Source: Norana najaformis (taxonomy: Eukaryota; Annelida; Clitellata; Crassiclitellata; Hormogastridae). Taken from it: a stretch of 64,000 bases of DNA. Of this stretch, positions 27,301-60,509 are shown in pieces; position 1 is the stretch's first letter; each line of letters begins with the position of its first letter. The stretch spans positions 46,503,976-46,567,975 of the forward strand of contig OZ029913.1 of NCBI GenBank assembly GCA_964023275.1. Direction: 5' to 3'. The notes under the pieces are model-generated. The model made no database searches. It saw nothing but the letters and a program-made list of their open reading frames with translations, and had not been told where the DNA came from. The translations under genes were made by a program, and so were the position numbers.

Positions 27301-28247
27301 TAATTAATTTATTTCTGAGTTTGAATATTTGTAACTGAAGCCTGTAAATTTGCTTACAGTTGGCACCTACTGAAGCCCAGCAGCAAGAGCTGGATGAAAG
27401 GCAGCGTCAGGAGAGAGAAAAACTAGCAAGAGAACAGCAGGAGAGAGAAAGACTAGCATTACAACAGGACAGAGAAAAACTAGCAAGAGAACAGCAGGAG
27501 AGAGAAAGATTAGCAAGGGAACAGCAGGCCAGAGAAAAACTAGCAAGAGAACAGCAGGAGAGAGAAAGACTAACAGGAGAACAGCAAGAGAGAGAAAGAC
27601 TAGCAAGAGAACAGCAAGAGAGAGAAAGATTAGCAAGAGAACAGCAGGAGAGAGATAGATTAGCAAGAGAACAGCAGGAGAGAGATAGACTAACAAGAGA
27701 ACAGCAGGCCAGAGAACAACAGCTGAAAGAAGAACTACAGAGGGTTCAGATTCAGAGAGAACAGCAACAGAAAGAACTACAGCAGAGGAAACAGCAGCAG
27801 AGAGAGCAACAACAGCAGAGGGAACAACAGCAGAGGCAATTGCAACTCGACCAGCAGAGGGCACAGCAGAATCAAGCAAATCAACAGATGCAACAACAAC
27901 AGCAGCAGAACCAGCAACAACAGGGACAACAGAACCAAAAACAAGTACAAGAGGAACAGAGACTGCAGTTTCAGGCACAACAGAATCAGCAACAACAGCA
28001 ACATAATCAGCAGCAACAGCAACTGAATCAGCAGCAACAGAATCAGCAGCAACAGAATCAGCAGCAACAGAATCAGCAGCAACAGAATCAGCAGCAACTG
28101 AATCAGCAGCAACAGAATCAGCAGCAACAGAATCAGCAGCAACAGAATCAGCAGCAACAGAATCAGCAGCAACAGAATCAGCAGCAACAGAATCAGCAGC
28201 AACAGAATCAGCAACAAGGTCAACCAGTTCAGCAAAGAGCACCATAA
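6272..28247 (+). CDS. CHST15-like: Carbohydrate sulfotransferase 15-like gene, 5' incomplete, with Q/N-rich C-terminal extension
   Basis: Six exons join in one frame: 6272(or 6274)-6394, 8272-8428, 19044-19197, 20571-20718, 26049-26266 and 27360-28247. Junction phases are 1, 2, 0, 1 and 0, and every donor/acceptor pair agrees. In order the protein shows [23 protein letters not shown] (the GDxSPS-like segment), VVVLRDP (start of the 3'-phosphate site), [34 protein letters not shown] and a final [16 protein letters not shown]…FTW. This order is that of CHST15 (GalNAc4S-6-O-sulfotransferase) homologues, Golgi enzymes that transfer sulfate from PAPS to glycosaminoglycans. The PAPS 5' loop and membrane anchor should be in upstream exons not found here. 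The last exon adds about 295 repeat-rich residues that the family normally lacks. Introns are loaded with transposons. The family assignment is firm; exact orthology and substrate are not. Confidence 0.85.
6423..6540 (-). mobile_element. Non-LTR 3' terminus in sulfotransferase intron
   Basis: The complement reads …AATGGTGCTGTAGAAGTTTCCACATTAGATTAG, the same end type as at 1660-1720 and 19225-19300. The body is short and non-coding, so this is a truncated copy or a SINE using that LINE tail. Confidence 0.45.
6560..8165 (+). mobile_element. CR1-like LINE, RT region, decayed
   Basis: The reverse transcriptase is broken over several frames: [22 protein letters not shown] (6650-6710), [13 protein letters not shown] (6900), [13 protein letters not shown] (7160-7195), YADDDQLY (7258-7280), then [15 protein letters not shown] and the thumb/C-terminal part ending [10 protein letters not shown] (8040). 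A tandem duplication of about 60 bases lies near 6715-6800. It ends in an AATAAAATAAATAAATT tail at 8143-8160. It is inserted in the intron between the first two recognised sulfotransferase exons, in sense. It is dead, with several frameshifts and stops. Confidence 0.8.
8272..8428 (+). CDS. CHST15-like: CHST15-like exon, GDGT motif to 3'-phosphate site
   Basis: The acceptor TTTCTGTTGCAG precedes a two-base start that completes Gly, giving [11 protein letters not shown]. The exon ends [14 protein letters not shown] plus AG at the donor GAGAG|GTACAG, and the next exon's G completes Arg. The LRDP core is the usual start of the PAPS 3'-phosphate-binding motif. Confidence 0.88.
9600..12838 (-). 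pseudogene. Transposase-like protein of uncharacterised 'FDTxxSNTG' family, broken
   Basis: Pieces follow family order on the complement: an N-terminal part (12838-12645, then 11405-11027, including [20 protein letters not shown] and acidic SSEEEASSE), GPPKRRR and [10 protein letters not shown] (about 11000-10900), [11 protein letters not shown] (about 10746), [16 protein letters not shown] (about 10575), [19 protein letters not shown] (about 10480), [12 protein letters not shown] (about 10240) and [17 protein letters not shown]…[16 protein letters not shown] (about 9740-9610). I recognise this order from proteins that are multi-copy in many aquatic invertebrate genomes; no biochemical role is known to me. 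The conserved Asp residues of WDGK and FDT, and the HH, are candidate catalytic positions by inference. Frameshifts, stops and a 1.2-kb insertion disable this copy. Confidence 0.65.
11408..12642. mobile_element. TA-flanked MITE-like element with ATAAGTCG terminal repeats
   Basis: The ends are CCGTATAAACTCAAATATAAG and, inverted, CCGTATAAATGCGACTATAAG, with 21 of the first 25 bases shared. They are flanked by TA at 11406-11407 and 12643-12644. Extra ATAAGTCGA words sit inside both ends. No transposase frame was seen. A strong hairpin (ACAAAACCATAT…ATATGGTTTTGT) lies at 12316-12356. It is inserted into the coding part of the 9315-13151 element, so it is younger. TA duplication and termini suggest a Tc/mariner (pogo/Tigger-like) non-autonomous family. 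Confidence 0.75.
14134..14215 (-). mobile_element. Non-LTR 3' tail, (TTATTATTG)n
   Basis: The complement ends …CCAGCACTATAAACGTATC followed by TTATTATTGTTATTATT. This is the CACTATAAA-plus-simple-repeat end typical of the LINE/SINE families in this window. It abuts the right terminus of the Tc1 element. Confidence 0.45.
14400..16645 (+). mobile_element. CR1/L2-like LINE with endonuclease and RT, heavily decayed
   Basis: Endonuclease traces occur near 14500-14720 (a GDFNI-like motif reading [11 protein letters not shown]) and an SDH-region scrap near 14800. RT traces follow: [17 protein letters not shown]-like text broken at 15620-15670, FDVVDLS at 15850, [12 protein letters not shown] at 16018-16055, FYADDTQLF at 16107-16134 and [10 protein letters not shown] at 16512-16540, ending near ARTITKTH. 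Many frameshifts and stops interrupt it. A younger LINE interrupts it at about 16648. It lies in sense inside the 10.6-kb sulfotransferase intron. Confidence 0.7.
16648..18610 (+). mobile_element. LINE family A copy, 5' truncated, split by an insertion in the YADD motif
   Basis: RT sequence: [61 protein letters not shown] up to 17040; then 17692 onward TQSFTHG…[58 protein letters not shown] and, after a frameshift near 18370, [20 protein letters not shown]. It ends GTGGCGCTTTATAAATG plus ACAATTACAGTTAC. The copy at 63365-64000 is uninterrupted at the same place and very similar, which defines the inserted segment. It is dead because of the insertion and the frameshift. Confidence 0.85.
17042..17690 (-). 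mobile_element. Fragment of another LINE nested in the RT active-site codons of family A
   Basis: By comparison with 63930, about 650 bases are inserted after YAD. On the complement the right part reads as a LINE C-terminus ([13 protein letters not shown], then [10 protein letters not shown] near 17400). 17045-17240 is AT-rich and unassigned. The exact ends and any target duplication are unclear. Confidence 0.6.
18611..19043 (+). other. Intron end with a small LINE scrap
   Basis: 18665-18765 reads [11 protein letters not shown]…[10 protein letters not shown], a C-terminal scrap of a different LINE type. The rest is AT-rich intron leading to a good polypyrimidine tract and acceptor at 19043. 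No gene. Confidence 0.45.
19044..19197 (+). CDS. CHST15-like: CHST15-like exon, middle of catalytic domain
   Basis: The first base completes Arg of RDPTER. The exon reads [20 protein letters not shown]…[22 protein letters not shown] and ends in phase 0 at CCA|GTATGT. The PSAxDFHxK and CVY segments match the CHST15 family, and the Cys residues fit its conserved disulfides. At the position where the family usually has RDPxERLYSDYLYF, this copy has [13 protein letters not shown], so the usual Ser is replaced by Leu. The exon is shorter than any frame a simple scan would list. Confidence 0.88.
19225..19300 (-). mobile_element. Non-LTR 3' terminus with ATTAGATTAG tail
   Basis: The complement reads …AAAGGTGCTGTAGAAATACTCAGATTAGATTAG, the same end as at 1660-1720 and 6423-6540. 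Only the tail region is recognisable. Confidence 0.45.
19431..19935 (+). mobile_element. Non-LTR element C-terminus (endonuclease-RT type different from the CR1/L2 copies)
   Basis: Across two frames the + strand reads [58 protein letters not shown] and DISEWCG…ATLERQQW. This is the common C-terminal region after the RT in endonuclease-type LINEs (CETW…GRP…EW..DI..W pattern). At least two frameshifts. It lies within the sulfotransferase intron 19198-20570. Confidence 0.7.
19950..20420 (+). mobile_element. Two LINE/SINE 3' ends in tandem
   Basis: TTAGATAGCCATG…AAAAAGGTGCTATAAATAG (20030-20095) and TTAGACATGTGTGCAGCGATTTTGTGAGGTACTTAAAATGTGCTA (20345-20395) are related terminal segments. Others are at 25385-25455 and 54385-54470. 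No coding content. Confidence 0.5.
20571..20718 (+). CDS. CHST15-like: CHST15-like exon, [14 protein letters not shown] to FLQL
   Basis: Starting in phase 0 after AAATCTAG it reads [20 protein letters not shown], then [20 protein letters not shown] and CSFLQL plus one base at CTCC|GTGAGT. The next exon's CA completes Pro. The IG(M/L)Y…W…VF and (V/L)(R/L)xEDY patterns are hallmarks of the CHST15/heparan-sulfotransferase-like fold. Confidence 0.92.
20880..21250 (+). mobile_element. Decayed LINE RT fragment
   Basis: The + strand reads [21 protein letters not shown] then [12 protein letters not shown] and a scrap of the LIEKIV-type segment, i.e. the start of the RT palm, with stops. 21250-22080 shows nothing recognisable. 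Confidence 0.5.
22081..23680 (-). mobile_element. LINE family A copy (minus), interrupted by a family B LINE
   Basis: Entering from 23680 the complement reads [17 protein letters not shown]…[11 protein letters not shown]. After skipping 23290-22316 it resumes at about 22310 with [10 protein letters not shown] and KRLKTVLFP, ending GTGGTGTTTTATAAG plus a (GATTACAATTACAATTACA) tail at 22081-22105. That tail and end match 18560-18600, 24080-24120 and 54310-54340. Confidence 0.75.
22316..23290 (-). mobile_element. LINE family B copy, 5' truncated, C-terminal half of RT
   Basis: A 342-codon open frame (23388-22360) contains [75 protein letters not shown] and [20 protein letters not shown]. It ends GCGCTATATAAGTTATC with an AAATACAAATACAAAATAC tail at 22300-22330. 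It is nearly identical over its length to 47988-48965, implying recent activity of this family. It is 5' truncated just before the YADD motif. Confidence 0.85.
23690..24120 (+). mobile_element. LINE family A RT scraps and 3' end
   Basis: Two partly duplicated segments of the AFD…ILI…HL region (23690-23900) are followed by a weak [11 protein letters not shown] segment. The 3' end is KRLKSVLF…GSGRERF…, with CTTGAAGTGGCGCTTTATAAATGT and ATTACAATTACAATTACA. Stops are frequent. Confidence 0.6.
24130..25460 (+). mobile_element. Decayed LINE with a nested LINE 3' end and a nested SINE
   Basis: Readable parts are [13 protein letters not shown] (24170), [14 protein letters not shown] (24565), [14 protein letters not shown] (24720) and [18 protein letters not shown] (24810-24870). 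24245-24490 is a foreign LINE 3' end matching 61550-61760 (SGLIFWILT…). 25035-25190 is tRNA-like SINE material. The end 25385-25460 has the GCGCTTTTGAGAGGTAATTAAAATGTGCTA terminus. No intact frame. Confidence 0.6.
25040..25110 (+). repeat. tRNA-derived SINE head
   Basis: GATGGGTTAGAGCTCTCGG resembles an RNA polymerase III A box, and GGGTTCAAGCC about 40 bases later matches the B box GGTTCAANNCC. No closing acceptor stem, so a SINE rather than a tRNA gene. Confidence 0.5.
26049..26266 (+). CDS. CHST15-like: CHST15-like exon, end of sulfotransferase domain
   Basis: CA completes Pro; the exon reads [16 protein letters not shown]…, then [24 protein letters not shown] and [17 protein letters not shown]. 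The L-x-x-F-x-x-x-L-N-x-x-L-A-x-L-L…F-x-W pattern is the usual C-terminus of the family, where most members stop. The donor is AACAG|GCAAGT, a GC donor, and a run-on would give only three codons before a stop. Phase 0. Confidence 0.9.
26267..27359 (+). other. GC-AG intron
   Basis: It starts GCAAGT and ends TTTGCTTACAG. It contains a short GT microsatellite near 26420, a minus-strand LINE 3' scrap (26885-26930) and AT-rich sequence. No coding exon was recognised inside. Confidence 0.7.
27360..28247 (+). CDS. CHST15-like: CHST15-like terminal exon: REQQ-repeat helix and Q/N-rich tail
   Basis: In phase 0 it continues [17 protein letters not shown]. About residues 15-130 are roughly ten copies of a 10-residue unit [10 protein letters not shown], highly charged and heptad-like, which suggests a long single alpha-helix or coiled coil. 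Residues 130-200 are Q-rich with charged spacers. Residues 200-290 are QQQQN units from a 15-base DNA repeat (CAGCAGCAACAGAAT), nearly perfect from 28020 to 28215. It ends QPVQQRAP and TAA at 28245. There is no in-frame Met near its start, so it needs the splice. Long frames on the opposite strand are repeat artefacts. A separate small gene is the alternative, but the exact phase fit argues against it. Confidence 0.8.
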   Translation: MAPTEAQQQELDERQRQEREKLAREQQERERLALQQDREKLAREQQERERLAREQQAREKLAREQQERERLTGEQQERERLAREQQERERLAREQQERDRLAREQQERDRLTREQQAREQQLKEELQRVQIQREQQQKELQQRKQQQREQQQQREQQQRQLQLDQQRAQQNQANQQMQQQQQQNQQQQGQQNQKQVQEEQRLQFQAQQNQQQQQHNQQQQQLNQQQQNQQQQNQQQQNQQQQNQQQLNQQQQNQQQQNQQQQNQQQQNQQQQNQQQQNQQQQNQQQGQPVQQRAP

Positions 28248-39333: not shown

Positions 39334-42300
39334 CTACAACAACATCCATGTCCACAGGCATTTTACACATGGGTGACATGGTTGCAGATCGCCAATGCAC
39401 TTGCCTTCCACCTCCAAGTCCAGGGTTCAAATTCTTATTGCACTGTCAAATTCCATATAACTTCAGAGACCATCTTCAATATAGTGCCTCCTTAAATACA
39501 ACACGCATGCACACATGCACTAGTGTCTGTGTGTGGCAGTTGCCATTGCATTTGCCTATCACTTGTGTGTACAGGGTTTGAATCTAAAAACTACTCAAGC
39601 AACTGGTAAGGAAAGATTGTCCCATTGTTGGATCACAGTAGTCATGTTCGTGCTTCAGCTGAAAGATCCTCCAACCCAATACCCACTCCTCTTAGGACAA
39701 ATGTTGCTCAAGGCATTTAATAAACGAGCAAAATTTTTACTTATTCATACCTTGTCAGTTCTAGAGCATTCTTTTACTAAGGACTTCTTTTGACAAATAA
39801 GGAACAAATAAATGAAACTGTTCCTCCAGTTCAAATTAAAAGCTTAAACGAGTTGAGTACATAAACAAAGCCGCCCATGCTCTTATATGGAAAGTGTTAA
39901 TTTCCTTTTCTTAGGCTGTGAGCTATCAAGGGACAAATTACACAGTTCACAACAATGCAGTCAAGATAACTAGCTTGCTCCCTGGAACTAGGTTGTAGTC
40001 GTCTTGTTTCGTGATAGTGTTTTATTTTAAGTCAAATGTGCCATTAGAAAGGTTCCTAAAAGATGCTACATACTGTACAGTATATTCATACATATAACCT
40101 GCACATGCATAAAACCCACACACATATATCCCGTAGAAATTTGCCAAACGTGTAAAAAGTTTGGTATAACCTGCACACACGCATACTCTGCAAACTCGCA
40201 AGATACAAGGAACAGACCATAAACACTAACCCAAGCAAGTATTAAAATGCCTAAACTGGTACACACAATCTATTTTTTCAGCATTCTCATATTGCACTGA
40301 GAATTTTTAACCCTTCTCTTGTTAACATAACAATGTTTTATTGCTACAAGACTGTTGCTTTGTTTTGGTCTATACCCTGCTTGCTTCTGGTGATAAAAAG
40401 AATATCTCCAGATAAGAGATTGCATCAGACGCAATCACAGGACACATTTGCTTTCATAGCACAGATCCATTGATCATTATAAATATACTGACAACTCTCC
40501 TAATCGTAAACTCAAAAATGTCTGCAGTGCTACTAAAAAGATAGCATCAACTTATTCATGAGCCAGGCCAGACTGTAATGGACAGACCTGGGGTTTAAGG
40601 CTGGGTAAAGGAAGCACAAAGGTCGTTTAAATGACATGACCAAACCACTGCTGTGACAGACATTCAGTAGCCTGGCCAGCAATACCACTGACGCTGTGTT
40701 GCTAAAATAGGCCAAACAAACGATCCTCCCATCAACAGGCAGATACCGGATGAGCCACGTTTTCAAGCTCATATAGCAATGCAGAGTGGCGTAGCCTCTA
40801 CAAGAATCTATTATCTTAAATTTTATAATTGTTGTTCCCCATCGTCTCTAGAATTAACTTCGTTCTCACTAATACTGTAGTTCCTGACAGCCAAGTTAGT
40901 TGGGTCTACAACTGACTTAATAGTTTGCAAGTGCATTCTATGTAGTATCTTTGGTTGTTATACTTAGATTTCTTGGGTTGGTTTTAAAACTGTAAAGTAG
41001 TGTCATGAAATCAAATCTGATAAAAATGTAACACAACAAAATTAACACACCTAAGACCCTGGCATGTAAGATCAGCGTCACATGATGATCATTTTTAGAA
41101 TTGCTAAGAACAAGTTCCTCAGTCACAAGTTTCTCTTCATTTGATTTGAAGTCTAAGGTCACCTCGTGACTTTCTCGGCCTTCAGCTGTGCACAGATACA
41201 CACAAAAACACATCTACAATTAGATCAGTGACACTAGGTGCACAAAAATGTTCACCGAACTTGGCTACCTTGCACAGTATATGTCAGTTTTCTTGCTTTT
41301 AATGGATTAGTTTAACATTGTTGCAGATATTTTCCTGGATAAAGTGCTATGGACTCACTGAAGTGAATCATTTAGTTACGCCTTTGTGATGATATAACAA
41401 ATTTTGAACTTGAGCTGGTGCCTGGCGTGGCATGGACATGCCTCCATGAGTCTACAGTTCGGATGCATTGAGGCCACTCAACTGTGATGGTCTGATAGTA
41501 AAATGTGCGGTAACAAATCTGTTCCCAGAAACTCCGCCTATCAATACAGACACCAAGTCCTTTTGTACAACTCGATAAGCTGGCTGTAAAACACAACATG
41601 CTGGCTGTACAGTGCAAAAGTGCCTTTGGGCTGACAAGCTGGCTGTATGGTGCAAAGGGCTGTATGGCAGCTTCAGGTGTGGAATGCTCAGAGTCTCAGC
41701 AGAAAAATGCAATGCAACAGCTGACACCATCACCAGCCATGATCCAATATCAGCACCTGCAAGTGCTCATATAGCGTAGTTTCATCACATTGTAATTCTG
41801 ACCTTACATCTTGCTCTTGTGGTGGCAGGATCACTGTCTTCCACTGGAAAATTGTGCGTATGAAGTGTATGGAACTTGATATGACCTTTACCACCTTTGA
41901 GGTTCTACACAGTTCCTTTGGAACAGCATGCAGGACAATCACCATTGCTATCATCTACCAAATAATAATAATAAGACAATTTATATAGCGCCATCGCACA
42001 GCCGAGGCCGAAGAAAAGGGCGCTGTACAAGGGTTCAAAAATCAACTGCAGTCATAAGATATCCTAAAAAGATGTGTCTTGAGTCGTGACTTGAATGTGT
42101 CCAGCGATGGGGCATTCGTCACATTCTCAGGAATACTGTTCCATGCAGTGGGTCCGGCGACAGTGAAGGAACGTTCGCCGAACTTCGTGGAAGAACGCGG
42201 GACATGCAGTTGATTCCTCGATGAGGACCGTAGCTGATGTGTTCTGGTTGTCGGCTGTTCGAATACAGAAGTTGGATATATAGTCTGGTAGAAGACCATT

Positions 42301-45300
42301 AAGAGCCTTGTATGTAATTAGGCACAGTTTGTAGGTGATCCGCTGAGGAATACGCAACCAGTGCAGGTTGTCGCGCAGCAGATCAGTGACGTGATTGAAT
42401 GGTGTCCGACCATAGATGAGGTGGGCAGCAGAGTTTAGCACTGACTGTATCCGCTCTAGCTGACAAGTCGGCAGACCTGCCAGCAGGCTATTGCAGTAAT
42501 CAACCCTGGAGATGATGAAACTGTTGACCAGAGTGACAGCGGTTGAGGTGGGAATGAATCTGCGGATCGATTTAATGCGACGCAACTGATAGAAGCAACC
42601 TCGTACAAGTTGATTCACATGGGCCGACATGGTCATGCAGCTGTCAAACCGGACCCCAAGGATGCGAACGGTGTCAGCTGGTCGAACTTCGGAATCACCG
42701 AGGGCAAAGGTACTGTCGTCGAGTAGATGGCAACGTCGGAGGGTGGTGCACCATAGAAAGTCAGACTTTGATGGATTAAGTCTGAGGCGGTTGGACGCCA
42801 TCCACTCTGAAATGCACTCGATACACAGCATCACTCTCTGTTTCAGCTCAGCGGTTTCTGATGGCTCACAGAAGAAGTAAAGCTGTGTATCATCCGCATA
42901 GCAGCGGTGAAGGAGTCCATGCGCTTGTATAATTCTCTCCACATCGGCCGTGTATAATAAGAAGAGGAGGGGGCCCAACACTGAGCCTTGTGGAACGCCA
43001 CAGGTGACCAGCCTAGGTGATGTCACCTCCCCCGCCAAGTGGACAGATTGCGTGCGCCCCTTCACGTAGGATTCAAGCCAACAGAGAGCTTTTTCTCTGA
43101 CTCCAAACGACCGAGATAGTCGTTGAAGCAGGATGTCGTGGTCGACTGTATCGAATGCAGCCAACATATCGAGAAGCGACAGAAGCGCTAGTTGGCTTGA
43201 ATCGATGGAATCGATTATGTCGGAGAAGACTTTGAGGAGCGCAGTCTCGGTCGAGTGGCTGCGCCTGTAAGCAGATTGAAATCGAGGAAGGAGGCAATAT
43301 TCAGACAGGTACTCAATGAGTTGTTGGTTCATTATGCGCTCAAGCACTTTTGAGACGAAAGTTAAGTTAGATACCGGTCTGAAGTTCGCCGGTGATGACT
43401 CGTCGATCCCATCTTTCTTAGGGAGTGGCGTGACCAGTGCGTGTTTCCATTTTGACGGAAAGCGGCCGGTGGCAAATGAATGGTTAAACATCCGAGCAAA
43501 GAAATGCGCCAGCAGCGGAGCCGCCTCCTTCATCAGCCATGCTGGAAGTGTGTCAAGAGAGCATTGTTTCGCTGGTGACGAAATCGTTACCTTAATTACG
43601 TCCTCCGCCGTAATCGGTCTAAACTCGGAGAATTCCGGAGAAGGGCTATCGGTGAATATTGCCCCGCTAGCATCGCATGTCGATGCTCGGATGTCTGCGA
43701 TTTTTGTTTCCAGGTAATCATGGTAGGTGGCAGCAGGGAAAGACCCGGATCTTGAAGTATCTTTACCTCCGCCAAGCAGCTGGTGAACTGATTGCCACAT
43801 GCGTCGCTGATTGGTTCCAGCAGTCATTATTTTTGACTTCCAGTAATCAGAGGCTTTCTGATGCGACAGTTTCCTGGCCGAACGCAAGGCTGTGCGCCAA
43901 GCTTGTTTACTCTCAATGCTAGCAGCATTGGTCTGAGAACGTCGGGCAAGACGTCGAGCCTTCCGCCTAGCTTCGCGACATTCGTTGTCGAACCAAGGCT
44001 GATGAGAGCGCTGTCGCACAGTAAACTCCAAAATGGGAGCATGCTTATCAAGCAGGCCGCTGATTACTGAGTCAAAGATATCTGCAAGATCATCTGCAGA
44101 GATATCGGTCGTCAGGCCACCAATCGTGCAGAGTTCCGACTTTGAGAGTTCGTCCAGGAAGGCGGCGGTGTCGAAGTGCTGCCACTTGCGCCTAGCAATC
44201 TTCTCGTAAGTCGGAGCTGGTGGTGTCATATTGATGGACCATGAAACTAGCATGTGGTCCGAGAGACCCACATCGGTGACCCGGACTTCGAATTGCGATG
44301 CGCTCTTGGAAGTGATCACATGGTCCAGCAGGCCGCCGTGCCGATGAGTTGGAGACTTCACCTCCTGCCGGAAACCGTATGTCAATAAGATTTCATTATA
44401 TTTTATGGTTTCTGGCTCCAGCTCTCGCTCAAGGTGTATATTAAAGTCTCCGGTGATGGTGACAGGCAGAGACATACTGGCGAGAGCTGCCAAAAGTGAG
44501 GAAAGTTCTTCAAAAAACTTCGGCCTGATTACTTCTGACCCGGGCCGGTATAGGACGACGAAGACGTGGCTGCTACCCCCCGTGGTCGTCCGACAGCATA
44601 GGTATTCAAACGATGTAACGTTCTGCCTCAGGTCAATTTTGGATAGGGCGATACCTTGCGTGGCGACGATGGCAATGCCGCCATGGTTCACAAATTTGGC
44701 CTTGCCCTGGCGCCGCTTGTCATCTATTGGTCTGGCAGCCTCAAGAAGGTTTAATCCCAGCCCAAACTGGACCTCAGCTGCCATTTGTGATATTCATTTT
44801 TAGAGTCCTTCTTGAAACCTGGTCACATATAATAGTCAGTTTGTTGTAAATGGAGATCATGACATCTGTGCAGAAGATCCAGGTTGTCTTTGGGCTGACC
44901 AGCTTTATTATGAAGCAACATGTCACTGCACATCAATGGCAGCTGTCTAGATATGATCATCACACGAGATGACAGCAGCCCAATCACAGTCAGCTTTGAG
45001 CCTCCATAGATTTCCAATCATGGCCTGCTAACCTACAACATTCAGTTGCTTTACTGCTGCTCGCTCATCAAAGAGGTCACAGTGCCAACATGGCATTCAC
45101 TTCACTGGAAAGCCTTGCACCAGAGCCTGCTCAGCAGTCGTTTTTGTTGACTCCCGCAGAAGCTGATCTCACCTGTGCAGAGCTGTCAACTTGCATAGAT
45201 CTATGCTCAGCTCTACCATTAACCATCTGCTTCTGTCATGTTCTGTTCACATCAGATACAACCAACTCCCTCCATGGTGTGACTTAGACAGCCAACCAAT

Positions 45301-51300: not shown

Positions 51301-54300
51301 ATTATATACTTAATTCATTACCGACCGCATGATACTGAAAGGTACTAATGGCAGCTGACCACACAGTACCAAATGGTACTAGGTGGGGCTACTCATATCG
51401 TAGCCTCTTGTCAATTCACAGGCCTTATAATTTAGTATTCTACATCATTTAGGTAACTAGGCATAATTTTAACCTACATAAATCATTGGATCCCCTGGAA
51501 AACACCTCAATATATAAAAAGCAACTAATCAAAATGGGCATTTAAATCGGTCAGCATATATATAGCTAAAATGGACATTTAAATGACCCAAAATGGCGAA
51601 CTGTTTGTTATCTATAGGAGAAAGAAGTTCGGCACTGATTGATGAATGGTCATCCACTGACAACAGTTGTAATTCTTCCAATGCAGAAAATGTGTCAGAT
51701 GGATCACACAAGTCTGTTGGTAATGTGAGGTGAACGAGTCGTACATTGATACGGAATTTGATGACAATGGCATCCGCTACATGCTTGCCGAGGGCGATGC
51801 GAGTCTGACCCAGAGCAGCAGAAGCTGACAACAGCATTGGGACAGAGTGGACTAAAAAAGCATCGAATTTTCCTTGTTTGCCCCAGAGACTAACCTGTAT
51901 GGTCATTGTTGTACTTGCATTTTATATTAAAAAAATACAATCAAGATTGCCCTGGCTGTTCCAAGATGACTCAGTTTGAATGTGAAGCATGAAAAGTTAC
52001 TTTGCGCAAAGTTTGATGCTTCCACATTTATCAAAAACAAACTATATTAGGGTTTTAGGATGCAGTCTTCAGTAAGTAAAAAACTGTGGAGAGCAAATAA
52101 GTAATGAAGCACATCAAAGCAACTGTTCAAAATTTTATTACAAAATTTTCCTCCCAAAACTCTTCAGTCCATTCTGTTTCCTTCCAAAACTCTTCAGTCC
52201 ACTCTGATCCAGCAACATCCAGCATTCTCCAACATAATCATCTACAGTCAATCCAGAAAGCTGTCATCCGAAACCTTCTTCGATCTACACACTTCTGTTG
52301 GCTTACAAAAATGAATAAAAAAACTAATTGACAGAGGAGAAAACCTTCCAAAACACATTTCAGTCTGCTTCTGCCATTGATGCAGCAAGCTACAGTCTTC
52401 TAGAATATTATGACTAGTATGATCATCTGGTCACCGCTATGTTGAACTTCAAGTTGACTCATTTCTTACATAAATTAACAACCAAATGACAGGACAGAAA
52501 GTACTAATGGATTATCCTCATCTAAAATCGGTAGATCTACAACTGATTTGAAAACCTGGAAGTTTAATATTGTCTGTTTTTGCTCCTTTTATTGTAATTT
52601 ACATACGAGTTTTATGACACCAGTCTAAGTAATAACAAATGTATTTTCCTCATTTATGAAAATATTTCTAAAAACTGGGTTTCTTGCTTTGTCTGGTAAT
52701 AATTTCTGTACATTTTATGCTCTAAAAGCATAATTTTTCACCAAGAAGTTTTGAGCAATAGGTCTCGAGCATTAAAGTAGGCCTACTTTAGTTTTATGGG
52801 GTATAGGTTTTGGGGCATTTTCAGTTATCCAAAAAAATGTTGAGTTAAAAATGGAATTCACAGATGGAAGAGAAGATAAAATGATAAAGAATGATGTTTA
52901 CCATATGTCTAACAGAGATATCACAAGTTCAATTTGTTTTACTCTTACCAATTTTTCTTTAATATTCTTCAGTTTTCATGGCAACATTCTAAATACTAAA
53001 AATTTTGTATTTCTTTCATCTATGAAAATATTTTTAACATTTCTTTTCAATTCTACCTGGCACCAATTTCTGCACATTTTTTGTGGTACATAACATATGT
53101 TGCCACTGAAAATTTTTTTTTAGACTGTCTTGAAGATAAAAATATAACAAATATTTTGGGGGTACAGTTTGGGACAACTTTGGTACCCTAAAATTTCTTT
53201 TTTCAAAAACTGGACAGATGAATGAAAAGAGGAGATAAAATGTTAAAGAATGGTGCTTACCTTATGTCTTCATGTCAAAAACTGACAGAGATATCACACA
53301 TTCAAAATTTATTTTTTGGCCATTTTTGCCAAAAATGTGTGGTCTTGAGGGGGTAGATGAAAAACATTCTGTGGTCATTAAAGCATTAAACATATATCTA
53401 CATCACACCTAGTAATAATCTCCATAAACAAAAAACAAGCTAACATATGTAATGTAGTTAAAATGCAAACACAATGAAAATCTCTACACATGCAAGGACA
53501 GCATTTGTGCTCCTGTACAGCAATTTGGACATAATGTGCTCTCATGCATTGATACATCCATCTAGCACAATTTTTCACTCAATTTTGAACTTCACCATCT
53601 GAAACCCTGGTAAGATTCAGTTCATCTGGCTAGGTAGCCATGTCGAACTCCAAAACTGACCTACTAGGCTCTTCCCTCATGTCTCCTCTTCAGTTCATGA
53701 CCCGGGAGTGACTTTGGATCAGGAGCTTACACTGCTGCAGCATGTGAAGAGTGTTTCTTGAACGTGCTTTTACCATCTGCGCCACACACTATACCTCACG
53801 ACCCAGGCTACAACCACTCTAATTCATGCATTCTTCTCCTCTAGGATTGTCTATGGTAATGTCTTCGCAGGCTTAGGTCTTTCTTGCATCTCGCAGCTCC
53901 AGTCTGTCTTAAATGCTGCTGCTCGCCCGACTGAAGGTATCCCTAGGTTTGGCCACATCTCGGAAGCGTATTCAATTCAAAATTCTGGCTCTTGTATGTA
54001 ACTGCCTCACTTAAAGAGCCCCACTCTACCTAAGGGAGCTTTGTGTTCTGACCTCTGTATCCGGCCGCCGCTCTGTTCAGCAGTTCAGGGTGACTTGCTT
54101 GTCCCGTTTACTCGAACAGCCACGGCTCAACATAGATTTTGCTGTGGCTGGTCCTAGATCTTGGAAATGCCTGTCTGGTGACCTGTGGCATAACTTCTCA
54201 GCCTTTCTCCCCCTCTGTACTGCGAGTGCTTGAAAATCTACTTGTTCCCCAGTGATTCTGGGTCGTCTGGCAGGCAGCATCTCTGATGAGTATACCTGGA

Positions 54301-54797
54301 AGTGGCTCTTTTTAAATTCTTGATTACGATTACGATTATGATTAAATTAGCTTAAGAAACATTTTCAGCTTTATCTTAAGATGCATTATTTAGATTATTT
54401 AGATACATTAGATAGCAATGTTTCAGCACTTTGTGAGGTTTTTAAAAGGTGCTACATAAAAGTTCAACTATATACATGTATAAATACAAACCAATCGGCA
54501 AACCATCTCATTACTTCATGAAAATAAAAAACCTACCACAAGAAGATGGCTTAACTTCTACCACATGGGCAAATCTTCCAGCAGAATTATTCCATGTGAT
54601 GGTGGTACCCAAGGCATCTTCAATTGCAAACTTGATCCCATAGCGATGGTTCAGCTGAAGGAAACCAAGATGGACATGTAGCTCTGTATCTGACAATCCT
54701 CTCTTGATCACAATCTCTGAGTCATGTTGCTGGACCTGTTCATCTGGGAAATGGACACGGCTCTCCCGGTGTGGAACATTTAGAATTGGGCTTCCTC
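39212..54797 (-). CDS. ADISSP: ADISSP (C20orf27 / UPF0687) orthologue, 5' incomplete
   Basis: Three exons on the complement join in one frame: 54797-54537, 41185-41051 and 39333-39212. Both junctions are phase 1 and complete Ala and Gly codons exactly. The protein reads SRVHFPDEQVQQHDSEI, VHLGFLQLNHRYGIKF, VVEVKPSSCAEGRESHEV, LVTEELVLSNSKNDHHVTLI, HARVLGKDKGTPVLREGIHC and ends FIRDSSFKNK. The order F-D-E…V-x-V-G-F-L-x-x-x-H-R-Y-x-I-x-F…E-E…A-R-V…G-T-P-x-L-x-x-G-x-x-C matches vertebrate C20orf27, now named adipose-secreted signaling protein. It is a small conserved beta-rich protein. Its role in an invertebrate is unknown. The first exon (Met and a few residues) was not found. Introns of 13.4 and 1.7 kb are filled with repeats. 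Confidence 0.85.
39340..39600 (+). repeat. Two tRNA-derived SINE copies
   Basis: GCCAATGCACTTGCC…CAGGGTTCAAATTC (about 39385-39435) and GCCATTGCATTTGCC…CAGGGTTTGAATCT (about 39540-39592) are diverged copies with a B-box-like core. They lie in an ADISSP intron in antisense. Confidence 0.5.
39600..41050. other. ADISSP intron, nothing recognised
   Basis: AT-rich sequence with no gene. A short GC-richer stretch at 40530-40780 gives random frames on the complement without motifs. Confidence 0.4.
41051..41185 (-). CDS. ADISSP: ADISSP internal exon
   Basis: After GTATCTGTGCACAG the exon completes Ala and reads EGRESHEVTLDFKSNEEKL, then VTEELVL, HHVTLILHARVL plus one base at TTAG|GTGTGT. It corresponds to the EGxxKEEI…VTVQARV segment of the vertebrate protein. 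Confidence 0.87.
41186..41957. other. ADISSP intron with small tandem duplications
   Basis: 41575-41665 contains imperfect repeats of GCTGGCTGTANNGTGCAAA. 41730-41954 is open on the complement without a recognisable motif. It borders the 3' end of the next LINE. Confidence 0.35.
41958..44790 (-). mobile_element. LINE family F: nearly intact endonuclease-RT retrotransposon
   Basis: This is the best preserved element here. An 885-codon frame (44784-42127) has endonuclease motifs TITGDFNIHLE (110-119), DHVIT (154-158) and LSDH (174-177). RT motifs are KHALVTPLPKKDG, FRPVSNLTFVSKVLE (468-482), [14 protein letters not shown] (536-549), [15 protein letters not shown] (594-608) and YADDTQLYF (629-637), then LRLNPSKSDFLWC and [10 protein letters not shown]-like text. 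A frameshift near 42250-42300 moves the last 60 residues (ERSFTVAGPTAWNSIPEN…FKSRLKTHLFRI) to another frame. The 3' end is TGGCGCTATATAAATTG plus TTATTATTATT at 41958-41980. The first endonuclease strands are missing, so it is 5' truncated. CR1/L2-like, sense in the ADISSP intron. Confidence 0.9.
45190..46110 (+). mobile_element. Decayed LINE fragment with embedded SINE
   Basis: 45210-45370 resembles the linker before the RT (YNQLPPWCDLDSQPMQRTVR…). 45990-46090 reads LDITNYHPKTNLSFLSKVIEE, the start of the RT palm. 45690-45740 carries TTGGTTAGCATGCTGG and GGTTGCAGGTTTATGCC, a SINE-like A/B box pair. Stops in all frames. Confidence 0.5.
46150..47515. other. AT-rich intron with a possible MITE end
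   Basis: 46653 onward reads ACCATATTTTCCAGACTAAG…GGGATGCGCCTTATTG, resembling the terminal repeat of a widespread Tc/mariner-type MITE (CATATTTTCCGGACTATAAG). The partner end was not located. No gene. Confidence 0.35.
47520..47985 (-). mobile_element. LINE C-terminal fragment with CATA tail
   Basis: The complement reads [37 protein letters not shown] and FSHISTYIRDTLHW, then in another frame FSTVGPSFWN. It ends GGCGCTTTATAAATTTAGAG plus CATACATACATAC. It abuts the family B copy at 47988. Confidence 0.75.
47988..50430 (-). mobile_element. LINE family B, long copy with endonuclease and RT
   Basis: Endonuclease C-terminus at 50311-49850 (LDLVITCDDCFLHDIRIHLP, VASDHALIEF, AAWFDGDCRRLHRRTRCLER). 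RT palm at 49490-49270 (KKPNLDPNDLHNYHPISNLSF), 49237-48512 ([51 protein letters not shown]). Thumb and C-terminus at 48475-48068. In this copy the active-site YADD reads YVDD. At least four frameshifts separate the pieces. The C-terminal kilobase is nearly identical to 22340-23270. It ends GTGCTATATAATT at 47988. Confidence 0.85.
50431..51309. other. ADISSP intron, nothing recognised
   Basis: No gene or element ends were identified. Composition shifts from mixed to AT-rich toward the right. Confidence 0.4.
51310..53389 (+). mobile_element. piggyBac derivative 1 (decayed)
   Basis: TTAA lies at 51310-51313 and 53386-53389. The ends TTCATTACCGACC and, inverted, TGCTTTAATGACC share 9 of 13 bases and resemble the CCCTTTAATGAC-type terminus. 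51594 onward encodes an acidic N-terminus (MANCLLSIGERSSALIDEWS…), and 51970-52030 has a decayed C-terminal zinc-finger segment (FECEA…KVTLRKV…CFHIY). The catalytic domain is missing. The right third holds two copies of a block containing GAGGAGATAAAATGTTAAAG (about 52865 and 53230) that also occurs, inverted, in piggyBac derivative 2. Confidence 0.7.
53600..54340 (+). mobile_element. LINE family A 3' fragment
   Basis: Readable parts: [57 protein letters not shown] and FAVAGPRSWKCLSGDL, broken by stops. The end GAAGTGGCTCTTTTTAAATTC plus TTGATTACGATTACGATTA matches the family A terminus. 54345-54470 adds another LINE/SINE 3' end (TTTCAGCACTTTGTGAGG). Confidence 0.7.
54537..54797 (-). CDS. ADISSP: ADISSP exon with the conserved beta-strand core
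   Basis: After acceptor CCTTTTCCAG two bases complete a codon; the exon reads GSPILNVPHRESRVHFPDEQ, then SEIVIKRGLSDTELHVHLG, FLQLNHRYGIKF and VVEVKPSSC plus one base at TGTG|GTAGGT. VHFPDE and VxxGFLxxxHRYxIxF are the family's strongest motifs. Confidence 0.88.
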
Positions 54798-54961
54798 CTG
54801 GAAAAGGTCAGAAAAACTGCAGTACAGATAGGCGGCCTTGCCTGAGCTTCTGTCTACATACAAAAAATAAATCTCATCTGCACTAGCAGTCAAGAACAGA
54901 AGAAATGCTCCTTCCTTAAGATTTTAAATCCTCATGAACTTAGGTCAGACACTAACTACAG

Positions 54962-56741
54962 TTAACCCTTAACTGACGAGGTAATTTTTTCCACCTAGGC
55001 CCTGATGACGAGCGATTTTACCGGAAAACGTCCTATTAATTAAAAGTTTTCAACTTGTTATATCTCAGTCAGTTCTTGACCTACAGACATGAGGTTACCT
55101 TTAGCATTTTATCTCCTCTTCCCATCCATCCATCTAGTTTTTGATACAAAAATTTTGGGGTACCCAAAGTTGCCCCAAATGGTACCCCACCCCATTTAAA
55201 ACATTTTTTCATGTTCAGGCCCCTATAGAAAACATTTTCAGCAAAAACATCGTGCAGAAATCACTACAAGACAAAACCTCCCAAAAATTTTGAAAATATT
55301 TTCATAAATGAAGGAGAAACAATATTTTTAGTAAGCAGACAGTAGTCATAGAATCGGAATAATAAGAAATGCCTAAAAAGTAAGAAATTTTTAACTTATC
55401 AGATCTTGGTAATTTTTGACATACAGACTTGAGGTTAACATCATTCTTTAACATTTTATCTCCTCTTTCAATCCTTCTGTCCAGTTTTTGATAGAAAAAT
55501 TCTGTGGCACTCAAAGTTGCCTACTCACCCCAACACTTCCCAAACACATACACAACAATACAACCACAACATCTAAAACACTGCAATATGCACACCAACA
55601 GGACAACAACAGTAACATTACAACAAGCCAGACACACAGAGAGGCAAACACACTGACATTTGTTTCCTTTTCAAATATTTGGTAGCTCTCAAAAGAGCCA
55701 TTTTTATGAATGCATGAGTGCACTGGATGGTCACGCTGAAGATGGGTGAAGCCTTCTGAATCGACTCCTCTTTCTCAATAGACTGAGAGGACAATTCAGA
55801 ATGGAAATGTTAACAGTTGTATCTATGTGCTATATTGCTTACCTTCCTTACATTCCACATGACCACTATCTGATTTTGTTCGTTGTAAATGTGGAAGCAT
55901 AGAACTTTGAACAAAGCAACTTTGCATGCTTCACATTCATACCGAGTCTTCTTGGGGCAGCCTTTGAAAATCTTGATCTTATTCTCTAAACATAAGATGC
56001 AAGAGGAGATGTAGGTTTCCATTTTATTCTGTGGGGTTTACCTGCCTTCTGTGCATTTGACCTACTCTGCTCAGCATGCAGGCCTAGTCTGTTCAACTAG
56101 CACATCAAAAAAACTTATCCAAAAGCAGTTAGAAAAAGTTCAAAAATGGTGCATCAGGGGCTGGTCAGCCACAGACGCTTGTAAATGGAACAGTTAGGGG
56201 TCAAATGGGAAAATCTGAAACCTGTTCTGTCCTGTCTATCTCGCCCAAGTCATCCGCCTGACCCAGTTTGATGGTCCCATAGCATGTATCGGCAGCCATC
56301 TGAACTCGGAGTCGATGTCAGAATGTTCTTTAGCCAAAACCACTTTATCTTCTTCACTGGTAGCAAAAGACAGGTTTTTACTGTCAGATGAGTCAAAACT
56401 GTCATCACCTGATGAAAATTCATCAAGAATTTGCCGAATTTTGTTGTCGGTAAGGCCACAACAACAACAAGTCGCCATTTTGGGTTATTTAAATTCGTGA
56501 TTTAAATGTCCGATTTGATTGGTTGATTTTTATGTTTATGACCGAATTCTAAAAATATCTTCCACTTATTTCTGTGCTTAATTATATTATCTTGGCCTAA
56601 TTGATGTAAGGTTTCAAAAATATAACGTCTGCGATAGGCTGAGAGCTGCCTACATAATAGTACTCGCCCACTACCATTTACTACCATCTCGTCGTGACCC
56701 CTAGAGTACCATTCACTACATACGCGTCTGTATTGGGTTAA
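54962..56741 (-). mobile_element. piggyBac derivative 2
   Basis: TTAA lies at 54962-54965 and 56738-56741. The ends CCCTTAACTGACG and, inverted, CCCAATACAGACG share 9 of 13 bases. On the complement 56478-56236 encodes an acidic N-terminus (MATCCCCGLTDNKIRQILDE then SSGDDSFDSSDSKN). 56022-55810 encodes the Cys-rich C-terminus (KKTRYECEACKVALFKVLCF), the piggyBac zinc finger. The DDD catalytic domain between them is deleted. 55065-55160 and 55400-55515 are two copies of a subterminal block (AACATTTTATCTCCTCTTT) shared with derivative 1 in opposite orientation. Confidence 0.8.
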
Positions 56742-56856
56742 AGATCAGAGTTCACCTCTGAACCACTTTATTTTATTGACATGTGATCATCACAATTTAT
56801 GGATGGCAACAGATTAGTATTCTCTAAGGCCAGGAAAGGTAAAGAATCAACTAGCA

Positions 56857-58086
56857 CAGTGTATTGCAAACTGTGTGCCGTGGCACATTAGTGTGCCGTG
56901 CGAGATTTCAGGTGTGCCGCGAGAGAAACCTAAAATTCGCTAGTCTCTTTAATTGACTTTATAAGAAAATAGTTCATAAATACAATTTTCGGCTTTTTAA
57001 TGTTTTCATTTTAAAGAATAGTTTCTCATGAATGTTTTCATTTTAAAGAATAGTTTCTCATTCACAGTTATTCGATGTCAGGTTATCAAAAGTAAAAACT
57101 CTAGTGACATTAATTTATTCTGTTATTTATGTGTTCACCCTCCTCTCGACGTCATTATTACGGAGATACCAGCATAATTATATCTATGACTTCTGGTTTT
57201 GAATTTCTTCACGACGACATTTGGTGGCTTAATAATTTGGCTAGCATAATTTGAAGTGACAATCCTCAACGACCTTTTCGAAAGGTTGAACACCTTAAAT
57301 TTGAGTCTTCAAGGTGCAAAAAAAAACATAATCTCAGTCATGGGGAAACTGAAGGCATTCAACAAAAAGTTGCAACTGTGGATTAAGAATACAAGCAATT
57401 CACAGCTTGATTGTTTTCCAGGTATTGATGCTTCTCCACATAAGAGCATAATAATGGGGAAAATTAGGGAGACGCTGGAAAATCTCGCTTTAGCATTCAC
57501 CAAATACTTTCCTTCACTGGAAACAAAAGAGTTTGAATGTGTCATCAATTCATTCGTAAACCACAAATGTACCGTTTTGTCGATGGCTGAAGAAGAGAGT
57601 CTCATCGATTTTAAGAACGATCTGGTTCACAAAGGCTCTTTTGCTGATCAAGAGTCGTCAGCATTTTGGATCTCAATTGTAAGCAAATATCCAGACTTGA
57701 GCATGCAAGCAATCAAGTATTTGCTGCCGTTTAGATCTTCGTATTTCTGCAAAGTTACATTTTCTGTTCTAACAGAAATGAAATCGAAAAAACGAGAGCA
57801 ACTACAGATGGTTGATGATGAAATGCGTGTCTGCTTGTCGGCTATCGAACCGCGTCTTGAGTTAATATGCTCTCATAAACAAGCTCATTCAGCACATTAG
57901 TGATGATTAGTCAATTAAAAATCTGCTTTAGTTTCGCTATTACTGGATTCAAATGACAAGCTTAAAATATGACAAGCTGAAATTATTGCTGTTGATTTTG
58001 TAATTTTAATAAATGTTAATTGGTGTGCCGCAATAAAAATTTGCTGTGATGAGTGTGCGGGAGTTTAAAAAGTTTGCGAGACACTG
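56857..58086 (+). mobile_element. Young 1.23-kb hAT element with perfect 8-bp target duplication
   Basis: The termini CAGTGTATTGCAAACT and, inverted, CAGTGTCTCGCAAACT match at 14 of 16 positions. The flanks are identical: AACTAGCA at 56849-56856 and 58087-58094. GTGTGCCG words repeat inside both ends. A short duplication (ATGTTTTCATTTTAAAGAAT) lies at 57000-57060. Too small for a full hAT transposase gene, it looks like an internally deleted copy that kept the 3' coding half. Confidence 0.92.
57250..57900 (+). CDS. hAT transposase C-terminal half (ZBED5/FAM200-like)
   Basis: An uninterrupted frame of about 216 codons opens right after a TAA at 57247 and ends TAG at 57900. It lacks an ATG at its start, so it is the tail of a longer ancestral gene. 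Motifs are LNTLNLSLQGAKKNIISVMG, KLKAFNKKLQLW, FPSLETKEFECVINSF, SAFWISIVSKYPDLSMQAIK, YLLPFRSSYFCKVTFSVLTE and LSAIEPRLELICSHKQAH. These belong to the hAT transposase family that includes domesticated vertebrate ZBED5 and FAM200 proteins. The BED finger and the first catalytic residues are absent. The lack of stops suggests a recent deletion event. Confidence 0.85.
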   Translation, partial: FEVTILNDLFERLNTLNLSLQGAKKNIISVMGKLKAFNKKLQLWIKNTSNSQLDCFPGIDASPHKSIIMGKIRETLENLALAFTKYFPSLETKEFECVINSFVNHKCTVLSMAEEESLIDFKNDLVHKGSFADQESSAFWISIVSKYPDLSMQAIKYLLPFRSSYFCKVTFSVLTEMKSKKREQLQMVDDEMRVCLSAIEPRLELICSHKQAHSAH

Positions 58087-58149
58087 AACTAGCAGAACGA
58101 ATTCCACAACGAATCCAGGTCATGTGCCATAAACAGTGGCAAAAGCTGC

Positions 58150-58283
58150 AGACCCTGACATGCCATGTTCTACCTCTGTGCTAGACCTGGGCATTATTCT
58201 CAAGCAAGAGCTTACACTGGACAAAAAATTTTTACAAAAGTCATGTTACTGAAATGAAATTAGTCAGTTCTTATCAATTTGTA
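58150..58283 (+). mobile_element. LINE RT scrap
   Basis: It reads STSVLDLGIILKQELTLDKKFL, the post-palm segment seen in other copies ([16 protein letters not shown]), and is cut off by the next element. Confidence 0.5.
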
Positions 58284-58425
58284 TGTGCTGAACACGAATA
58301 TGACAGTGAAAATGCCGAATTGGCTCTAGTTTTTTTGTAATCTGAAATGAAGTAATTTTATATCGCACAATGCATGCCAATAGTGATACACTTACAGTTA
58401 ATATTTGTAAAAACCAGGTCATAGA

Positions 58426-60118
58426 CTAGTTCTTAGATTTTTTTGCCTGTCTCTTGTACAGCTGTTCAGAAGCATCTCTGCGGAGTGTCCAGCAGTAGTC
58501 AGCCAACATTGTAGTGGACCATTTTCCCTGGTACCTTTGCTCCATTGTTGCGATATCTTGATGAAAACGTTCGCCATGTTCGTCACTAACCATACCACAG
58601 TTGTCAGGGAAGAAATCCAGATGGGAATGAAGGAAATGCATCTTCAGAGACATATTGCAGCGAAATTTCTGGTACTGCTTGAGCATGTCTTCTACTAGTT
58701 CCTTGTAGTTTTCTGCCCTAACATTCCCCAGAAAGTCTGTAGACACTAGACGAAAAGCATTCCATGCTTGTTTCGCATCACCCTCCAGCAAGTTGTTGAA
58801 GCGGTCATCTTTGAAGAGTTCTCTAATCTGAGGACCCACAAAAACTCCCTCTTTAATCTTTGCTTCGCTGAGTCGAGGGAATTTTTCATGCAGGTATCGG
58901 AAAGCTGGCGAAGTGCGGTCCATGGCTTTCACGAAGTTCTTCACCAAACCTAGTTTGATGTGAAGGGGTGGTAGTAGGATTTTGTGAGCCTCGACCAGAG
59001 CTGGGTGCTGGATATTCTTCTGTCCAACTGCCATGTTTTGTCTGGGAGTCCATTCCTTCCGCAAGTAGTGCAACTCTCTTGCTCGGCTATCCCACTCACA
59101 CAAGAAACACATATATTTTGTATATCCTTGCTGCAGTCCCATTAAAATGGCAACTACCTTCAAATCACCACACAGGTGCCATTTGTACCTGTTATAGTCA
59201 ATGGAATGCAGTAGCTGTTTTAGGTTATCGTATGCCTCTTTCATGTGGACAGCATGCGCTAATGGAATAGACGGTTTCCATTGTGCAAACGCACAGCCTT
59301 AAGACTCAGTGTTGAAGAGTCTACAAAGAGTCTCCATTCTTGTGGGTCATGAGTGATCTGTAAGGCATTCATGAGGTCGTCAATATTGGAAGAGAATACC
59401 AGATTACCTTCCTTCATAAAGAAAGGTTCCAACTGCTGATGGCGCTTTCTATATGAAGTAATTGTGACATCTTCTTCTAGAAGATTCCATTGTTGGAGTC
59501 TTGATCCTAGCAATTCTGCCTTGTTTTTGGATAAGTCCAAATCACAAACAAGGTCATTTAGTTCTTCCTGTGTTATTCTGTGTGGGGTTGATGATGCACC
59601 ACAGTGAAAATCGGGATCACTGCACGCTGACGGACCAGGAGAAGAACATGTCGGCTCACCCTTGTCCTCATCAGATGAATCAAGGAAAATATATTCTGCT
59701 GGAGGTTCTGGAATAGGAAGTCCATCACCATGTGGAACTGGTCTCAATGCTGACGGAATGTTTGGGTAGACTATTGTCGACTTCTTTTGCTTCGTTATTC
59801 CACCGGAAAGAGGGAAAGAGGAGGAACCAAGCAGAAGTAACAGTCATCTACGTGGTTGCTTTGCTCTCTCCACACCATGGGAACTGCAAATGGCATTGAT
59901 GGTCTTTTGCCATTCAACCACTGTGAAAGCTGTGTTGTACATGTAGCACAGCATATATGCGGGGCCCATGGCTTGTCTTGGTCACCAACCTTGCATTCGA
60001 AGTAAGCATGATATGCCTTCTTGACTTGATAAGTGATACTTTTCTTCTGGTTGGCAAATGTCACTTCCCCACAAATGTAACAAAAGTTGTCCACAGTATT
60101 TACGCACTTCCGAGGCAT
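58426..60118 (-). pseudogene. Conserved 'KWHLCGDLKVV / DEHGERFHQDI' protein family, two frameshifts
   Basis: Three pieces on the complement follow one another. 60118-59795 is a Cys-rich N-terminus (MPRKCVNTVDNFCYICGEVT, CKVGDQDKPWAPHICCATC, KRPSMPFAVPMVWRE and CYFCL). 59747-59259 is a linker (YPNIPSALRPVPHGDGLPIP, ITQEELNDLVCDLDLSKNKA, ELLGSRLQQW). 59244-58426 is the C-terminal domain (KWHLCGDLKVVAILMGLQQG, YTKYMCFLCEWDSRARELHY, PPLHIKLGLVKNFVKAMD, DEHGERFHQDIATMEQRYQG, LADYCW). The family usually runs through as one protein of about 560 residues. Here about one-base shifts at roughly 59805 and 59268 break it. It is multi-copy in arthropods and other invertebrates with no known function. Conserved Cys/His and Asp/Glu residues suggest metal-dependent nucleic-acid chemistry, by inference only. 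Confidence 0.75.
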
Positions 60119-60232
60119 TACTGTTCTGTATTGTATCTAAATGGATAAAGTAATAATAGTTTTATAAAACAGTAACTTAAACTGTCTCGCACAAAGTCTG
60201 TAATATTGTAAATGCTCAACCGTTCCGACTCG

Positions 60233-60314
60233 CTTTATATAGTACACTGCTGACGTCATCTTACGTCAGCAGCCGACTGGCTGTAGTTTTACATTGCATC
60301 AGAAAATGACGTAA
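60233..60314 (-). promoter_or_regulatory. TATA box with upstream CRE sites
   Basis: On the complement CTATATAAAG (60242-60233) lies about 115 bases before the ATG at 60118. Just upstream are TGACGTCA (60251-60258), a second CGTCA core (60264-60268) in a perfect GCTGACGT/ACGTCAGC inverted repeat (60249-60270), and TGACGTAA-type (60307-60314). These are textbook cAMP-response-element sequences, and their placement fits a core promoter inside the transposon. Confidence 0.6.
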
Positions 60315-60509
60315 TCAACTGTGCATGATGTGTCCATGATGGGATTATGCAATGAGGTGGAATATTACATCATTCTAGACTTATTTAGGATATTGTCGCA
60401 GTCCTACTGCATAAATTTACATGGTGAAACATAAAAAATGAACTATATGAAATATTTTCAAAACGAGAGCCAATAAAAAATTTTTATGGTTATATTCGTG
60501 TTCAGCACA

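Follow-up and report, generated by a model that had tools for sequence, protein, structure and literature searches.

What kind of gene lies between the inverted repeats at the two ends of a 2,226-bp unit (58284-60509) in the 64,000-nucleotide stretch of Norana najaformis DNA analysed here (the window)? The gene is the only one in the unit, is read from the minus strand, and belongs to a family that we take to be widespread in invertebrate genomes as intronless 'hypothetical' genes. The first-pass annotation had proposed that this family is the transposase, or the cargo, of its own mobile element, rather than a host gene.

The two terminal inverted repeats (TIRs) are identical over their outer tips (18/18) and match overall at 39/49 and 40/50 positions. 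The 50-bp pair spans 2,126 bp of interior and was recovered by BLAST of the region against the window with E = 4.7e-06, confirming the earlier description of a gene framed by inverted repeats about 80% identical over 49 bases. The statement that nothing else stands between the repeats was likewise borne out, in that no other recognised coding sequence was found inside 58284-60509 besides the single gene. The repeats stand 92 and 341 bp off the ends of the reading frame and are best kept at positions 1-18 and about 36-50, a pattern that would be expected if both blocks were protein-binding sites. The 18-mer tip occurs twice in the window at ≤3 mismatches, compared to an expected mean of 0.11, and none of 100 shuffles gave two occurrences. 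No third copy of the tip was found in the 64 kb at this threshold, and a blastn search of the window gave no further hit to the repeat that scored comparably. When the whole window was simulated with a Markov model, 1/100 runs produced one or more exact 18-bp inverted repeats within 5 kb. In the actual sequence, about six places carry exact 18-mer inverted pairs, some of which stem from repeats, the pair at 22087/24124 among them. The repeat-made pairs imply that the simulations understate the background, and, given about six such pairs, the TIR bracket taken alone would be moderate evidence.

The gene runs from 60118 to 58426 and is split by two frameshifts over three overlapping frames, P0003, P0002, and P0001 (Table 1). 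The overlap of the P0002 frame with both of its neighbours places one frameshift on each side. No in-frame stop is present in 559 codons. In a simple substitution model, the probability of zero stops decreases from 0.23 at 2% change to 0.052 at 5% and 0.002 at 8%. The improbability of zero stops at higher divergence implies either that the copy lost constraint recently or that the frameshifts are assembly errors, and these two alternatives look alike in the data. Through its two frameshifts the copy is dead, or looks so. No second copy of the gene was found in the window by tblastn with all three pieces; within this scope, the claim that this is the only copy of the family holds. The N-terminal piece contains C13-x2-C16, C57-x2-C60, and H89-x3-C93-x2-C96, and this Cys-rich region is predicted to bind zinc and is likely DNA-binding.

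Table 1. Positions in the window of the inverted repeats, gene pieces, and candidate catalytic and zinc residues.
Feature	Position	Strand	Remark
Left terminal inverted repeat	58284..58333	+	On the side of the 3' end of the gene; 40/50 match to 60460-60509, first 18 identical
Right terminal inverted repeat	60460..60509	-	On the side of the 5' end of the gene
P0003, N-terminal piece	59795..60118	-	Starts MPRKC; last residues run beyond a frameshift
P0002, middle piece	59259..59825	-	Ends at candidate first catalytic D; frame overlaps both neighbours
P0001, C-terminal piece, 282 aa	58426..59274	-	Contains second D, CxxC, HxxxxH, and E
Candidate first catalytic Asp (FVDSS)	59319..59321	-	Picked by eye only
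Candidate second catalytic Asp, P0001 D37 (CGDLK)	59164..59166	-	Aligned by BLASTP with RAG1 D708
CFLC, P0001 C56 and C59	59098..59109	-	Putative C(2)C zinc pair, 19 residues past D2
P0001 H105 (LHIKLG)	58960..58962	-	Counterpart of RAG1 H795 (LHCDIG)
HFLHSH, P0001 H213 and H218	58621..58638	-	H(4)H motif ahead of E
Candidate catalytic Glu, P0001 E232 (DEHGER)	58579..58581	-	Counterpart of RAG1 E962 (NESGNK)

The C-terminal piece carries, in this order, D37 (CGDLK), C56-x2-C59, H105 (LHIKLG), H213-x4-H218, and E232 (DEHGER), where the H213-x4-H218 pair lies 14 residues ahead of E232. The C(2)C and H(3-4)H spacings appeared together in 8/20000 shuffles, and a less strict version of the full motif pattern appeared in 44/5000 shuffles and in 1 of the 10 window ORFs of at least 250 aa, which was P0001 itself; these shuffle figures, like those of the RAG1 comparison below, are guides, because the motifs were sought and the spacings compared only after the protein was read. 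The [CD]xxH (C/DxxH) signature of hAT, P, MuDR, Kolobok, and Dada occurs nowhere in P0001.

The same order of residues is found in CACTA/Mirage/Chapaev/Transib transposases and in RAG1, the V(D)J recombinase that cuts antibody genes. The best BLASTP match of P0001 to RAG1 695-1007 set D37-E60 on D708-D731, ungapped, with 9/24 identical residues (E 0.006). This match spans catalytic D708 to C730 of RAG1, and C56 and C59 fall on C727 and C730. Shuffled versions of P0001 reached E 0.0065 or better in 10 of 2000 cases. When 20 window ORFs of at least 150 aa (two of them frames of this gene) were compared to RAG1, 15 matched at E ≤10; the best match was from this gene's own frame, and the best from another ORF had E 0.16. 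We then held the motif residues fixed and shuffled the rest of each block (n=20000). The D2-CxxC block, with the D and both C fixed, was scored as well by 3/20000 shuffles. The block setting E232 on E962 was equalled by 72/20000 shuffles, compared to 5372 when E235 was used in place of E232, and the block setting H105 on H795 by 227/20000, H105 being the best of five His tried. The HxxxxH block gained no support against RAG1 beyond its two His (7916/20000 shuffles as good), and the first-D block gained none against RAG1 D600 (19326/20000 shuffles scored at least as high as the real block). Thus, within the D, D, E triad, the D2 and E blocks are supported and the D1 block is not. The whole-length local alignment of P0001 with RAG1 is weak (46/1000 shuffles as high), and similarity beyond the motif blocks is at noise level. 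In published reports, the corresponding residues of pig RAG1 are given as D711, C730/C733, H940/H945, and E965 (PMC13056857), and mouse H795 is described as an active-site residue (PMC7204232). H795 would be the third H of the group.

The first-pass annotation had suggested predicting the fold of the C-terminal domain. Single-sequence AlphaFold models, with no alignment behind either, were of too low confidence to be used, both for P0001 (pLDDT 44.1) and for P0003 (pLDDT 39.1). No Pfam family reached its cut-off for the gene pieces or the read-through. The matches below the cut-off to PRKCSH-like (E 0.0036), Retrotrans_gag (0.038), and FdtA (0.12) were judged to be chance; the read-through of the gene again gave PRKCSH-like and Retrotrans_gag below the cut-off. 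Among PDB sequences, nothing was found below E 0.89 (best 1yk9), with five more at E 0.95-1.5. The prokaryote, phage, plasmid, and viral collections yielded no relative; five phage records (best E 2) and four plasmid records (best E 0.8) were returned. A 23-residue match in an Arthrobacter stretch (L001; E 0.006) lies in an Arg-rich frame of a GC-rich contig and was judged to be chance. Viral contig stretches L002-L005 gave tblastn matches of ≤24 residues to P0001 near the motif, L006 and L007 gave none, and translation showed L002 and L003 to be stop-rich at the matching site. Six further viral contig stretches from a pattern search did not contain a relative. In the text of papers, neither the family's peptide sequences nor the 18-bp tip was matched, so that the family may still be described in figures, supplements, or Repbase; no paper recognisable as describing it was found by other literature searches. 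The family may already be in Repbase under some name.

The ends of the element are 5'-TG..CA-3' (TGT..ACA), flanked by TTGTA on one side and CCAAG on the other. The collection of target duplications had also been suggested; at the tips, none with a length of 2-30 bp could be seen. At this single copy, the tips match at 0/2, 1/3, 1/4, and 0/5 positions for duplication lengths of 2, 3, 4, and 5; for every length from 2 to 8 bp at most one position agrees, and 5/10 is the closest fit at any length up to 30 bp. Shifting the boundaries independently by ≤12 bases gave three 4-base matches and nothing longer, even with 20% mismatch allowed from 8 bases, and by arithmetic about three 4-base matches are also expected by chance (625 boundary pairs x 1/256). 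A CAC sits 10 bp inside the TIR, and no duplication occurs at that boundary either. The reading frame is only slightly decayed, which makes loss of a duplication by point mutation unlikely. Either the element inserts without a duplication, or one flank of this single copy has been rearranged. The right flank is a decayed LINE. For the left flank (58085-58283), the match to LINEs was not significant, at 18.5 bits (E 0.73). Its nucleotide alignment to one LINE copy scored 16.5, above the 95% point of shuffles (16.0) and below their maximum (19.0), with the order right and the spacing off by about 127 bases, and its alignments to two other LINE copies fell under the 95% point of shuffles.

The window as a whole is repeat-rich and has the character of eukaryotic, most likely animal, DNA, with LINE reverse transcriptases and one histone 3' stem-loop. 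A LINE at 42127-44784, which is presumably CR1-like, keeps an open, uninterrupted frame of 885 aa that encodes an endonuclease domain and a reverse transcriptase domain (E 7.5e-31). At 22087-24124, a LINE piece is flanked by copies of a repeat in inverted orientation, alike at about 77% over 128 bp, and the arrangement mimics a TIR element; further copies of this repeat lie near 18559 and at 54204-54338. Inverted stretches about 1.9-3.9 kb apart and 77-82% alike at 51914-56003 suggest a partly palindromic repeat region. By contrast with the unit at 58284-60509, a small hAT-like neighbour at 56857-58086, with CAGTG..CACTG ends (16/20 identical), still has a perfect 8-bp duplication, AACTAGCA, on its two sides (56849-56856 and 58087-58094); the hAT dimerisation match in its ORF stays below threshold (E 0.032). 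The window also contains a Gln/Arg-rich tandem-repeat frame of QQQQN units at 27360-28247, with internal repeats about 73-80% alike, and, on the minus strand at 8839-8885, the stem-loop of a histone 3' UTR (Rfam RF00032, E 3e-08).

We consider it likely that the unit at 58284-60509 represents a single copy of a DNA transposon of the cut-and-paste kind and that its only gene encodes its transposase, with a catalytic region of the RAG1/Transib/CMCT type. The TIR bracket, the lack of another recognised gene, and the RAG1/CMC-type C-terminal motifs together support placing the gene in a mobile element of its own, and the motifs favour a transposase over cargo. The original proposal is thereby supported in part, with the first of its two options preferred; it was right on structure and probably right on meaning. 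The best reading of the copy's inactivation is that it is recent. In the likely course of movement, the transposase would bind both 50-bp ends, probably through its N-terminal region with the CxxC pairs. A DDE/D site, presumably in an RNase H fold with a RAG1-type insertion stapled by zinc and including the candidate first D, would be completed by the last catalytic E; the zinc ion, bound at CxxC and HxxxxH, may position that residue. The enzyme would cut at the ends to free the element and insert it at a new site, and this joining may be direct, without a duplication.

That the unit is mobile and the gene is cargo or an accessory, with the transposase supplied by another element, is in our judgement unlikely. 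This explanation draws on the lack of a Pfam transposase match, on the unsupported first catalytic D, and on the absence of a target-site duplication that would link the element to known integration chemistry. It is opposed by the extent of the gene, which fills 58426-60118 of the 2,226-bp unit, and by the D2-CxxC-H-HxxxxH-E order that P0001 shares with RAG1, where the D2-CxxC match is significant. A domesticated host gene of transposase ancestry, recently broken, with the old element ends surviving, would also account for tips without a duplication, because a long-selected ORF could remain stop-free while the duplication decayed. However, the remaining 18/18 identity of the tips speaks against great age, two frameshifts interrupt the copy, and the surroundings are LINE and hAT-like repeats with no gene context; we regard domestication as quite improbable.

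Chance placement of two copies of an unrelated dispersed repeat around a retro-copied or orphan gene has a precedent in the window, in the bracket around the LINE piece at 22087-24124. The uniqueness of the 18-mer tip and of the blastn match in the window and the 92- and 341-bp distances of the TIRs from the reading frame all speak against it, and we judge such a coincidence very unlikely. Just as hard to credit is membership of a superfamily outside CMCT, with the resemblance to RAG1 arising by chance. According to published descriptions, IS481EU of Histomonas resembles the element in its TGT..ACA ends, in TIRs around 50 bp or shorter, and in encoding one protein, and Spy, of the PHIS group, resembles it in making no target-site duplication. 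By the same descriptions, IS481EU makes duplications of ~4, ~15, or ~25 bp, whereas none up to 30 bp is present here, and Spy inserts between AAA and TTT, in contrast to the TTGTA and CCAAG flanks. The gene has no Pfam integrase or DDE match, and nothing of PHIS type, neither a motif nor a Pfam match, was detected in it. The TTAA duplication of Kolobok is also absent, since the flanks read TGTA and CCAA. Moreover, the D2-CxxC match to RAG1 is itself unlikely by chance.

If the transposase interpretation is true, the unnamed family serves as transposase for an element that is complete in itself, and its members should be masked as transposons and not counted as host genes. A wider proposal, which we offer tentatively and hold to be rather more doubtful than probable, is that the family represents a lineage of animal transposons not yet described, of RAG1/Transib/CMC type, with TG..CA ends and duplication-free insertion, so that many unnamed 'hypothetical' animal genes are RAG1-like transposases. 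By carrying RAG1-type catalytic motifs outside Transib, such a lineage would aid in tracing the origin of the V(D)J recombinase. An enzyme of CMCT type that inserts without duplicating its target site would be exceptional in its mechanism.

In motif order and across the D2-CxxC stretch, the C-terminal piece is like RAG1/Transib/CMC transposases, while the element's ends and target site depart from the published group. Descriptions of CMCT (CACTA/EnSpm, Mirage, Chapaev, Transib, RAG1) give mostly 5'-CA..TG-3' ends and 2-5 bp duplications, and for Chapaev 5'-CAC..GTG-3' ends and 3-4 bp duplications. The element differs from both in having 5'-TG..CA-3' ends and, at the single copy examined, no duplication. 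It shares with CACTA/EnSpm, Mirage, Chapaev, and the wider CMCT group a TIR-bounded structure with the transposase gene inside, and, between the second D and the E, C(2)C (C56-x2-C59) and H(3-4)H (H213-x4-H218). We therefore file the gene product as one predicted from its sequence to work like a CMCT transposase and, because two of the features tested were absent, do not claim full membership. The likeness to Transib is drawn via the RAG1 sequence and published motif descriptions, and the TG..CA ends and lack of a duplication separate the element from RAG1/Transib. Between the proteins, D1-D2 is 108 residues in RAG1 (D600, D708) and about 50 here, counted across a frameshift, D2-E is 254 in RAG1 compared to 195 in P0001, and the last H to E distance is 20 in RAG1 compared to 14. 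By contrast, the distance from D2 to the first C is 19 in both, the HxxxxH spacing is the same, and P0001 and RAG1 have in common a GLxxxxxxYxCxLC stretch, LHxxxGxxxxFxK around H795, and a glutamate set in ExGx[KR].
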